The position numbers were made by a program, and so were the translations under genes. The notes under the pieces are model-generated. The model had not been told where the DNA came from and did no database searches. It was given only the letters and a program-made list of their open reading frames with translations. From Candidatus Steffania adelgidicola (GTDB taxonomy: Bacteria; Pseudomonadota; Gammaproteobacteria; Enterobacterales; Enterobacteriaceae): a DNA stretch of 64,000 nucleotides. Below are positions 18,949-23,140 of the stretch, piece after piece. Numbering within the stretch: position 1 is the first letter of the stretch; every line of letters starts with the position of its first letter. The stretch is from NCBI RefSeq assembly GCF_020541225.1, contig NZ_CP045889.1, positions 372,001-436,000 of the forward strand, written 5' to 3'.

Positions 18949-19794
18949 TTAGTTACGGGAAGATCGTTGGCCCTCATGCTTATGTTGCTTTTCCTTCCGG
19001 GTTATTAACCACCAAGCCATGAATCCGATCATGCCTACTGCTATTAAAATAAGCGTTGCTAGGGCATTAATCTCAGGGTTGACTCCCATGCGAACACTGG
19101 AAAAAACAAGCATTGGTAGCGTGGTGGAACCGGGACCAGCAACAAAACTAGCGATAACTAAATCATCAAGCGATATGGTAAAAGCCAGGAACCAGGATGC
19201 AATAATAGCTGTTATAATCATTGGTAAGGTAATAATAAAAAATATTTTCACTGGAGTTGCACCCAAATCCATCGCAGCTTCTTCGATTGATTGATCTACC
19301 TCGCGTAGACGAGAGCTCACTACTACTGCTACATATGCAGTACAAAAGGTAACATGTGCTAACCAGATAGTGAGCATACCGCGTTCTTCAGGCCAGCCTA
19401 TCGAATTCCCCATAGAGATAAAGAGCAGTAGTAGAGAGAGGCCGGTAATCACATCAGGCATTACAAGCGGTGCAGTGAGCATAAATTCAAACCCATTAAA
19501 ACCCCGAAAGTAGCCGAATCGGACAATCACGATCGATGACAAGGTCCCCAGTACTGATGCCATGGTAGCTGTGGAGGCAGCCAGGATCATACTTAATGTC
19601 ATAGCCCTAATCATCACATCATCATGCACTAGAACTTGATACCATTTTATAGACCAGCTAGCCCAGACAGTTACCAGCCGCGAACTGTTAAAGGAATAAA
19701 TTACCAACATTAATATCGGTGTGTAGAGAAACGCATAGCCTACCAGTAAAATTAAAGTACGCCATGGTGAACGCACGATCGGTAAATGGCTCAT
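18949..19794 (-). CDS. potI: Putrescine ABC transporter permease PotI
   Basis: Second membrane permease of the putrescine-specific importer PotFGHI. It has 281 aa (E. coli PotI is also 281), with six membrane segments and the cytoplasmic EAA loop EEAAMDLGATPVKIFFIITLP that contacts the ATPase. MSHLPIVRSPWR matches the family N-terminus, so I take the ATG at 19794. It overlaps the stop of potH by one base (TGATG), showing translational coupling. Sequence is closer to PotI than to the spermidine permease PotC. Last gene of the operon, followed by a hairpin. Confidence 0.96.
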   Translation of the reverse strand: MSHLPIVRSPWRTLILLVGYAFLYTPILMLVIYSFNSSRLVTVWASWSIKWYQVLVHDDVMIRAMTLSMILAASTATMASVLGTLSSIVIVRFGYFRGFNGFEFMLTAPLVMPDVITGLSLLLLFISMGNSIGWPEERGMLTIWLAHVTFCTAYVAVVVSSRLREVDQSIEEAAMDLGATPVKIFFIITLPMIITAIIASWFLAFTISLDDLVIASFVAGPGSTTLPMLVFSSVRMGVNPEINALATLILIAVGMIGFMAWWLITRKEKQHKHEGQRSSRN

Positions 19795-20759
19795 CAGGGT
19801 TTCTCCATGGCTTTTTTCTGATAGTTGTGGAACCACATAATAGGCGCGATCAGCATTACCAGCATTACTACTGCCACTGCCGATCCCTCTGGCCAGTCTC
19901 GGTTATAAAAAAACTCTTCCCACAAAATTCGGCCGATCATAATGTTACCTGATCCGCCAAGCAATTCGGGGATCACATATTCTCCAAAAGCTGGGATGAA
20001 TACAAGCATGGAACCTGCTATAACACTGCTTTTCGTAAGTGGCAAAATGACTTTAAAAAAGGTTTTGAATGGGCGTGCTCCTAGATCTAGCGAAGCTTCT
20101 ACTAGTGAATAATCTAGTTGGGTTAGCGCAGTATAGATTGGTAGGATCATGAAGGGTAAATAAGCGTATACGACACCAATATATATTGCTAGATTGCTAT
20201 GATTGTTATGTAAAATAATCAGAGGATGGTCGATAATCCTTAACCATATTAGTATATTGTTTAGAATACCATTATTTTTTAAAATAGCTATCCAGGCGTA
20301 TACGCGAATTAAAAATGAGGTCCACGAGGGTAGGATTACCAGCAGTAACAAAATATTACGAGTGGATGTTCGACTATGTGCTATTGCCCAAGCCATGGGA
20401 TAACCTAGTAGCAGTGAACAGAAGGTTGATACTGTTGCCACTTGTAGGGATTGTAGGAAAGCTTCGATATACAAAGGGTCATCTAAGAGTCGCATAAAGT
20501 TAGCGAGATTAAGTGATATTGTTAGCGTTCCATCGAGCCAGTTAAGCAAATCTGTATATGGCGGGATTGCGCGTGCTGTTTCAGCTAGACTAATTTTCAA
20601 TATGATGAGTAATGGCAGCATAAAAAATAGCAGTAGCCAAAGATATGGCAGGAAAATGATTAAGTTACGACTATGTAATGTTTTCCAATATTTTAAAAAT
20701 ATTGGAATGAGCGTATCTCGTATCCCGCCGGGTGCTTGGGTGGAGTGAGGATTAAACAT
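19794..20759 (-). CDS. potH: Putrescine ABC transporter permease PotH
   Basis: First membrane permease of the putrescine importer. It has 321 aa (E. coli about 317). A long cytoplasmic N-terminus is followed by six membrane segments. The EAA motif reads EASLDLGARPFKTFFKVILP, and the PotH-typical stretch ISLAETARAIPPYTDLLNW is present. It sits 8 bases after potG and is coupled to potI by a one-base stop-start overlap. No broken motif seen. Confidence 0.96.
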   Translation of the reverse strand: MFNPHSTQAPGGIRDTLIPIFLKYWKTLHSRNLIIFLPYLWLLLFFMLPLLIILKISLAETARAIPPYTDLLNWLDGTLTISLNLANFMRLLDDPLYIEAFLQSLQVATVSTFCSLLLGYPMAWAIAHSRTSTRNILLLLVILPSWTSFLIRVYAWIAILKNNGILNNILIWLRIIDHPLIILHNNHSNLAIYIGVVYAYLPFMILPIYTALTQLDYSLVEASLDLGARPFKTFFKVILPLTKSSVIAGSMLVFIPAFGEYVIPELLGGSGNIMIGRILWEEFFYNRDWPEGSAVAVVMLVMLIAPIMWFHNYQKKAMEKP

Positions 20760-20767
20760 ACCCCTCC

Positions 20768-21898
20768 CTATACGGTAAGAACAATGCAGCTATCCGCATC
20801 CCAACATAGAGTTACCTGATCTCCCCAGGTAGGCATGCCTTTTCGGTAACGGTATGCATTAGTTAGTTGAGTGATAATAATCATCCCGCTTTTAATGCGG
20901 ATGTGATAAATAGATAGATCCCCCAAGTATGCAATATTGATTACTTCGCCGATGGCGAAGTTACAGCTGTCCGCCGGTCTATCGTTGCAAAACATAATTT
21001 TTTCTGGTCGCAGTGCTATGTAAACTGGTATGCCATCTACTACTGATGCATCGGTGTTAATTCGTAGAAGAGAGACTAATTCTGTGCTCTGGAGGACAAG
21101 TGCATTGTCGGAACGTTCTTTCAATAATCCTGTGAATATATTTACTGACCCAATGAATTCGGCGCTAAATCGGCTATTCGGGTGTTCATAAATCTCCTCT
21201 GGTTCACCGATTTGTATAAGTTTTCCACGATTCATTATAGCGATACGACCTGCCATAGTCATCGCTTCTTCCTGATCGTGGGTCACCATGACGCAGGTCG
21301 CACCGACTCGCTCAAGAATGTCTACTATTTCTAACTGCATGCGATCGCGTAGCTTTTTATCTAATGCTCCCAATGGTTCATCAAGTAGAAGAAGTTTAGG
21401 CCGTTTAGCTAAACTTCGTGCGAGAGCAACCCGCTGGCGTTGACCACCGGAAAGCTGATGTGGTTTATGCGTTTTATATTCCTGCATATGTACCATCGCT
21501 AGCATTTGTGTCACCCTTTGTTTAATCTCCTGGCTTGGCAGTTTATCCTGTTTTAGACCAAAGGAGATATTCTGTTCTACCGTCATGTGGGGAAATAGCG
21601 CATAGGATTGAAACATCATATTGATAGGTCGTTGATAGGGGGGTGTATGAGAGAGATCTTGATCGTCAAGAATGATATCGCCGTGGGTTGGTGTTTCAAA
21701 ACCTGCTAGCATACGTAACAGTGTAGATTTTCCACAGCCAGAACCGCCTAATAAAGCAAATATTTCCCCTTTATAGATCGTTAGGCTCACATCATCTACA
21801 ACTATGTGTCCATCATATCTCTTGGTGAGATTTCGGATTTCTAGGAGGGGTATAACCATTTTTTTTGGTTCCATTGGACAGGGGATGGGGTATGGCAT
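20768..21898 (-). CDS. potG: Putrescine ABC transporter ATPase PotG (displaced start)
   Basis: ATPase of the putrescine importer; 376 aa from the ATG at 21898. Walker A GGSGCGKSTLL, Q-loop MMFQSYALFPHM, signature LSGGQRQRVALARSLAKRP, Walker B LLLLDEP and H-loop MVTHDQEEA are intact, followed by the regulatory beta domain with ALRPEKIM. The N-terminus is odd. Seven bases upstream a GTG (21905) with GGAG about 10 bases before it begins MNDAIPHP, matching the E. coli MNDAIPRP start, but it is one frame off from the ABC domain. Removing one A from the A8 run at 21859-21866 would join the two. The ATG used here starts in the ABC frame but sits about 17 bases from the ribosome site. Confidence 0.9.
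   Translation of the reverse strand: MPYPIPCPMEPKKMVIPLLEIRNLTKRYDGHIVVDDVSLTIYKGEIFALLGGSGCGKSTLLRMLAGFETPTHGDIILDDQDLSHTPPYQRPINMMFQSYALFPHMTVEQNISFGLKQDKLPSQEIKQRVTQMLAMVHMQEYKTHKPHQLSGGQRQRVALARSLAKRPKLLLLDEPLGALDKKLRDRMQLEIVDILERVGATCVMVTHDQEEAMTMAGRIAIMNRGKLIQIGEPEEIYEHPNSRFSAEFIGSVNIFTGLLKERSDNALVLQSTELVSLLRINTDASVVDGIPVYIALRPEKIMFCNDRPADSCNFAIGEVINIAYLGDLSIYHIRIKSGMIIITQLTNAYRYRKGMPTWGDQVTLCWDADSCIVLTV
21859..21866 (-). other. A8 homopolymer at the potG frame break
   Basis: Eight consecutive A on the coding strand, between the ancestral-looking GTG start and the ABC domain of potG. A7 would restore one continuous family-like frame. This is either a real one-base insertion, a slippage site, or a sequencing or assembly error. 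Confidence 0.75.
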
Positions 21899-21979
21899 CG
21901 TTCACTAATATTACTCTCCGATATCGGCGAGGAAGCAGACCAGATTAGGCGGTACGGTGCATCACCGTGAACAAAGCAG

Positions 21980-22005
21980 AATAGGCAGGAGGGAATCTGC
22001 CTATT
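21980..22005 (-). terminator. Hairpin between potF and potG
   Basis: Perfect 9-bp arms (AATAGGCAG at 21980-21988, CTGCCTATT at 21997-22005), 8-nt loop, about 32 bases after the potF stop. No strong U run follows. In many binding-protein operons such a hairpin lowers expression of the distal genes or stabilises the binding-protein mRNA; that role is inference. Confidence 0.5.
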
Positions 22006-22036: not shown

Positions 22037-23140
22037 TCATTTACCACTTTTTACTTTCATCCAAGAGCGAGTGATCACGCGATCAATTTTGGGTGGCTGA
22101 ACTTTTAGCATAAACAATTTAGTGCATACCTCCGGTGGTGGATAAATACCCGGGTTGTTACGGACTTCTGGATTCAGTAGCGCCGTCGCAGTCTTATTTC
22201 CGTTAGCATAAAAAATCTGATTACTAGCGTTAGCAATTACTTGTGGATCGAGTAAATAGTTAATGAACTGATATATTTCATTGAGATTTTTAGCGTCTGC
22301 TGGAATAGCCAACACATCAAAAAACATTAATGCTCCATCTTTTGGAATCGAATACGCAATATGGACATTATTTCTCGCCTCTTTGGCTCGGTTGGCAGCT
22401 AATATTACATCTCCAGCCCAACCGATCGCGACACAAATATCACCGTTAGCAAGGTCATTAATATACTGCGATGATTGGAAATACCGAATGTTAGGTCGTA
22501 GTTTTAACAGTAGGTTAGTAGCTGCTTCGGTATAATCAGTGGATTTTTCGCTATTAGCGTCTTTCCCTAGATAGTTGAGCACTGTTGCATAAATCTCAGA
22601 AGGTGCGTCAAGAAACGAGACTCCACAGCTTTTAAATTTCTTAAGGTTATCCGGGTTAAGTACTAGATCCCAGTGATCTATGGGTGCAGCCGTGCCCAAT
22701 ACTGATTTTACCTTATCGATATTATAACCGATACCAGTCGTAGCCCACATGTATGGAATGGCATATTTATTGCCGAGATCATGGCGACTAATAACTTTAA
22801 GTAGCTGAGGGTCAAGATTTTTATAATTTGGTAGTTTGCTTTTATCGATAGGCTGAAATACCCCAGCTGATAGCTGGCGTTCCAGGAAGCTCACAGAGGG
22901 GACTACAATATCGAATCCGCTACTACCGGCCATCAGTTTGCCTTCGAGTACCTCATTTGAATCAAAAACGTCATAAACCACTTTGATACCGGTTTTTTTT
23001 TCAAAATTAGATACGGTATTCGCTCCAATATAACCTGACCAGTTATATACATGTAGCGTTTTCTGCTTAGCGGATACAGAAGCAGCTATGAGTAACCCGG
23101 TAATCAGACCGGTAAGCAACAATTGACGTTGGGTAAACAT
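22037..23140 (-). CDS. potF: Putrescine-binding periplasmic protein PotF
   Basis: Periplasmic receptor delivering putrescine to PotGHI. It has 367 aa (E. coli 370). It begins with a signal peptide (LLLTGLITGLLIAASVSA, cleavage near SAKQ) and continues with the binding-protein fold. Conserved pocket regions include YMWATTGIGYN, YINDLANGDICVAIGWAGD and FFDVLAIPAD; the ending is KVKSGK. One odd position: the family NWSDYI reads NWSGYI, replacing an Asp of the ligand-pocket segment by Gly. GAA-AAA-AAA-A gives an in-frame A9 run in FEKKTGIKV. A strong AGGAGG-type ribosome site precedes the ATG. First gene of the potFGHI operon. Confidence 0.96.
   Translation of the reverse strand: MFTQRQLLLTGLITGLLIAASVSAKQKTLHVYNWSGYIGANTVSNFEKKTGIKVVYDVFDSNEVLEGKLMAGSSGFDIVVPSVSFLERQLSAGVFQPIDKSKLPNYKNLDPQLLKVISRHDLGNKYAIPYMWATTGIGYNIDKVKSVLGTAAPIDHWDLVLNPDNLKKFKSCGVSFLDAPSEIYATVLNYLGKDANSEKSTDYTEAATNLLLKLRPNIRYFQSSQYINDLANGDICVAIGWAGDVILAANRAKEARNNVHIAYSIPKDGALMFFDVLAIPADAKNLNEIYQFINYLLDPQVIANASNQIFYANGNKTATALLNPEVRNNPGIYPPPEVCTKLFMLKVQPPKIDRVITRSWMKVKSGK

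Follow-up and report, generated by a model that had tools for sequence, protein, structure and literature searches.

The window, the 64,000-nucleotide stretch of DNA analysed here, carries on its minus strand the operon potF-potG-potH-potI, with the four genes in that order and all above their equivalog cut-offs. potF (22037..23140; NF007962, 675.5 bits against a cut-off of 636, residues 1-367), potH (19794..20759; NF007963, 527.6 bits against 489) and potI (18949..19836; NF007889, 501.8 bits against 476) are intact. potG (20768..21898), which encodes the ATP-binding subunit of the putrescine ABC transporter, carries a frame break at its 5' end and is otherwise intact. It passes the curated cut-off of the equivalog model NF008621 with 732 bits against 613, residues 10-376 matching positions 11-377 of the 377 in the profile. 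The enterobacterial putrescine importer potFGHI has the gene order, the start signals and the equivalog models in common with the operon in the window and differs from it in the start frame of potG only.

Divergence was estimated (NG86) against G004, which together with G026 is the nearest relative (84% identity over residues 4-376). The dN values are 0.084 for potF, 0.100 for potG, 0.138 for potH and 0.120 for potI, against dS values of 3.6, 3.0, saturation and 2.2, respectively. As judged from sequence divergence, purifying selection has maintained the pot operon on this branch. The leader that can be aligned to the relative comprises 15 codons, which is below the size for a selection test. 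The genome measures 1.37 Mb; of the 150 that matched PotG at E ≤ 1e-150, none is smaller, and the next in size has 2.1 Mb. Twenty genomes lacking such a match were listed, 14 of them 0.4-2.0 Mb in size, and 125 more also lack one. For a genome of this size, having kept putrescine import may be unusual. The gap between potF and potG contains a 9-bp stem-loop (21980-22005, minus strand). The same stem can form in the matching stretch of four other loci (L002, L003, L209 and L210), with paired changes on both sides as judged by eye, which suggests a conserved RNA element.

Base-level reading of the minus strand at the 5' end of potG reveals a Shine-Dalgarno sequence, GGAG (21916..21919), followed after a ten-base gap by the ancestral GTG start codon (21903..21905). 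Located 3' of the GTG are an ATG (21896..21898) and a run of eight A's (A8, 21859..21866) that has one base more than the family frame. The GTG now starts an out-of-frame ORF of 30 codons (21813..21905), which ends at TGA 21815-21813. This frame encodes (V/M)NDAIPHPLSNGTKK and departs from the family sequence at the A8 run; the leader read from the GTG carries NDAIPHPLSNGTK. The frame of the ABC domain is open from ATG 21898 to 20768 (376 residues), and the reading from this ATG carries MPYPIPCPMEPK. The same frame contains two further ATG codons, at 21872..21874 and at 21857..21859, the latter formed by the final A of the A8 run and the TG that follows. With a single indel in a poly(A) run and the rest of the gene in frame, potG is thus a homopolymer-frameshifted gene. 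An earlier note on this DNA had described the GTG at 21905, with GGAG about 10 bases upstream and in a frame differing from that of the ABC protein, and this description is correct to the base. Its figure of 360 residues for the ABC protein is approximate, since the product has 376 residues from ATG 21898 and 363 from ATG 21859, and the ATGs at 21874 and 21859 were absent from it.

The leader and the ABC domain lie in one frame in all 42 orthologous loci of the same gene order, and likewise in 29 of 29 other loci from a family search, in which 150 of 295 genomes, our own included, matched PotG at E ≤ 1e-150 and the best 30 loci were read. No frame break in the potG leader was found in either set; the two sets overlap by five genomes and may share more species. 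The 42-locus set leaves out the locus itself (L001) and the more distant L020-L025 and L054-L059, which have other leaders and of which L023 and L024 yielded no anchor; L026-L030, L060-L062 and L064-L110 also lie outside this comparison. The spacing from the GTG to the LLEIRN motif is 58 bases in the window against 57 in G004 and G026, hence one extra base in the window, and the spacing between GGAG and GTG is equal in these relatives. Every orthologue compared supports the earlier proposal that one base at the A8 run splits the ancestral GTG start from the ABC domain. Among the 42 leaders, A runs reach five bases at most. A8 is a common motif in the genome (249 forward and 264 reverse matches, overlapping matches counted), and a chance A8 unconnected to the frame break was ruled out by the one-base difference in spacing relative to the nearest relatives. 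The break in the leader is likely to be an ordinary one-base poly(A) indel, adding one more example to a known class. The comparison covered one genome each for the source genus and for those of G026 and G004, and neither this set nor the low dN is informative on the age of the indel. Within potF, a longer coding run, A9 at 22993-23001, is in frame.

We compared the four candidate starts by the predicted Shine-Dalgarno duplex with the canonical 16S tail, which is present in the genome, and by local folding over 70 bases. GTG 21905 has by far the best Shine-Dalgarno of the four (GGAG at 10 bases, duplex -7.0 kcal/mol), in the wrong frame for the ABC domain. ATG 21898 lies 17 bases from the GGAG, with a duplex of +0.5 kcal/mol and thus without a usable Shine-Dalgarno, and ATG 21874 likewise lacks one (+1.6 kcal/mol). 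ATG 21859 is preceded by GGA at 10 bases (-3.3 kcal/mol) and lies in the weakest predicted structure, -5.1 kcal/mol compared with -7.3, -9.3 and -10.5 kcal/mol at the other three starts. In the predicted fold, the GTG is unpaired, whereas AUG 21859 has its U and G base-paired within a small hairpin that has the A run as its loop. Given this difference and the superior Shine-Dalgarno, most ribosomes would be expected to load at GTG 21905 still.

We favour ATG 21859 as the start in the ABC frame. This is not a new codon: seven close relatives (L207-L212 and L216) have an internal Met codon at the same position (K-M-V). The 363-residue protein starting there begins MVIPLLEIRN, just before the ABC fold. 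In a sample of 153 long ORFs, the leftmost start of 77 shows fewer than four matched Shine-Dalgarno bases, and for 46 the first 60 codons offer no better start, while 107 have at least four matched bases at some early start, compared with 9 of 153 random positions. A weak start site is therefore not disqualifying, although a strong one is the rule. The earlier note had proposed, as one of two alternatives, that PotG is made from a downstream ATG. We retain this kind of route, but the codon it named, ATG 21898, was set lower as a main start for want of a Shine-Dalgarno, and ATG 21859 is better placed.

Initiation at ATG 21859 would dispense with the leader. Among the relatives, the leader varies in length and sequence, being two codons shorter in L231 and unlike in L221 and L235, and it lies outside the ABC fold; its loss is therefore probably tolerated. 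In entry 8y5g, the deposited PotA chains 8y5g_D and 8y5g_A start either at the counterpart of P17 in PLLEIRN or one position ahead of it. Since the PotA sequences of 8zx1 and 8y5f are full-length, this trimming may only show what was modelled in 8y5g. Among close relatives the leader is well conserved, and this conservation hints at some role.

To place the break in its genomic context, we sampled 464 kb, comprising 20 stretches (L184-L203) and the window, or 34% of the 1,369,541 bases. The sample has 37.1% G+C, and 49% of its bases lie in chosen ORFs of at least 100 residues. It contains 144 A or T runs of at least eight bases, 45 of them inside such ORFs and 99 outside. A first, stricter scan for split ORFs returned 30 pairs in the sample, none with a run of at least six in the overlap. 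A loosened scan returned 1, 3, 7 and 10 pairs with such a run at thresholds of 0.12, 0.08, 0.05 and 0.02. At 0.05, the scan recovered 65 of 69 insertions and 64 of 69 deletions; it requires about 30 codons on each side and is blind to leader breaks such as that of potG. We examined the seven pairs at 0.05. Two of the seven are the natural potH/potI overlap. In family searches of the other five loci, sapF, thiL and metG gave consecutive profile matches in two frames, and tusD and a transketolase gave none. A Pfam run neither confirmed nor contradicted the joins. A general wave of homopolymer errors was not seen in the 464-kb sample.

The three split genes differ in their state. sapF, which NCBIfam describes as a putrescine exporter's ABC ATPase, breaks into two frames at an A8 run (L184:4974-4981, G000:C1:19974-19981), so that two polyamine ABC ATPase genes in one genome, sapF and potG, have A8 frame breaks. 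In metG, the split separates the catalytic part from the C-terminal domain (L185:8153-8226), perhaps at an A run, as an A6 lies between the matched parts. thiL is split at an A7 and has two further stops downstream (L193:15269-15617, minus strand); it looks like a young pseudogene that is plainly decaying. Thus, A-run indels occur in this genome and at least one has led to decay. The sample also contains, in its 464 kb at 37% G+C, 22 runs of G or C that are 7 to 11 bases long.

The closest known systems are the poly(A) frameshifts of Buchnera and Blochmannia, which are described, as for potG, as one-base poly(A) indels in otherwise intact genes of reduced, AT-biased genomes (PMC3017870; PMC4389277; PMC3164680). 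Tamas 2008 and Wernegreen 2010 are the works cited for such frameshifts with rescue by slippage. The Blochmannia papers treat poly(A)-frameshifted genes as intact on slippage grounds (PMC3017870; PMC4389277). potG differs from these cases in that the break falls in a 19-codon leader before the folded domain, with in-frame ATGs remaining, and in that a deletion would be needed. Its run is also short, at A8, whereas the Blochmannia passage calls runs of at least nine long. A second comparison is Sodalis glossinidius, which like the source genome is a degrading enterobacterial symbiont genome (PMC7067036). In seven split genes of that symbiont, one of the ORFs left by the split still yielded peptides, and a 5'-end insertion with an alternative start is discussed for a slyA-like gene (PMC7067036). 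The RNA-level frame corrections it describes are insertions in C8 and C9 runs, unlike the poly(A) of potG (PMC7067036).

Two routes would restore the full-length ancestral protein from the GTG. In transcriptional slippage at the A8, some mRNAs would be one A shorter. The GTG has retained a good ribosome-binding site, and rescue at long poly(A) runs is reported for 12-50% of transcripts in aphid and ant endosymbiont genes (PMC5009743; PMC3017870). Deletion slippage is also documented: lacZ work cited in PMC6260861 found it on runs of 7-11 A's, where it reached at most half the insertion rate, and homopolymer deletions in Buchnera are described as increasing exponentially with run length (PMC5574713). 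Set against this, the poly(A) runs examined in PMC6260861 gave zero deletion rescue with E. coli RNA polymerase, and in the same E. coli reporter the host polymerase showed no insertion activity below eight A's. In the transcriptome-wide data of PMC5574713, both E. coli and Buchnera show mainly insertions at A/T runs, and zero frame-restoring errors were detected. The slippage data on both sides all come from other bacteria. Because a deletion is needed and because of the type of run, slippage, which is weakly supported, is disfavoured as the main route and is not the most economical one. The earlier note's proposal that slippage makes PotG is thereby weakened by the absence of deletion rescue with E. 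coli RNA polymerase and keeps some footing in the cited lacZ deletions; we regard it as unlikely. The second route, in which ribosomes would shift by +1 on AAA AAA A, would join the GTG leader to the ABC frame and give the same product as the shortened mRNA. By reading of the sequence, the P-site lysine tRNA could re-pair one base on, which would bring the ATG into the A site. Inspection by eye around the A8 found neither a stop codon in the A site nor an RF2-like stimulator at the characteristic distance, and we hold such a frameshift to be very improbable.

Two other explanations concern whether the break is real and whether PotG is still produced. The extra A could be an assembly error, or the symbiont population could be mixed, with the family frame on many chromosomes. 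Homopolymers are common sites of error, and a single genome was examined. Nonetheless, the 464 kb contain 69 A or T runs of at least seven bases well inside coding-like open stretches of at least 180 codons, yet family-confirmed splits at such runs number two, sapF and the further damaged thiL. Widespread homopolymer error is therefore unlikely; one isolated error at the potG A8 could still have arisen, and we give the assembly or mixed-population explanation a minor but appreciable chance. Alternatively, potG could be just starting to become a pseudogene, with PotG no longer made in a useful amount. The chosen ORFs of at least 100 residues leave about half of the sampled DNA uncovered, and thiL illustrates an A-run split followed by further stops. 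Against this stand the intact potF, potG body, potH and potI and the internal in-frame starts that remain in potG, and we consider such early decay quite improbable. The last reading gives the run length a function as a setting: with the family frame, the leader and full output would be obtained, and with one A more, a 30-codon upstream ORF and a leaderless PotG from the AUG at the end of the run. To us this is a long shot. If it were true, changes in run length would tune polyamine import.

We arrive, at somewhat better than even likelihood, at an explanation from sequence in which potG took an ordinary poly(A) indel, its leader is dispensable and initiation at an internal AUG bypasses the break, with no recoding required. 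In a genome in the course of losing genes, an indel of one base would have shifted the short N-terminal leader of potG out of the ABC frame. PotG would then be produced by ordinary initiation, most likely at AUG 21859 as a leaderless protein of 363 residues, perhaps also at 21898, and ribosomes loaded at the old GTG would make a useless 30-residue peptide. Since the strong Shine-Dalgarno still serves the GTG, the output of PotG is probably lower. No exotic rescue has to be assumed, because an internal in-frame start could give the working part of PotG. Should slippage be proven at this site, a short poly(A) run would have been rescued by deletion, an outcome that the E. coli reporter does not predict. 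In potG, an internal Met codon that was already present could yield an intact ABC protein, and poly(A) frameshifts in decaying genomes should be checked for internal starts before they are counted as rescued by slippage.
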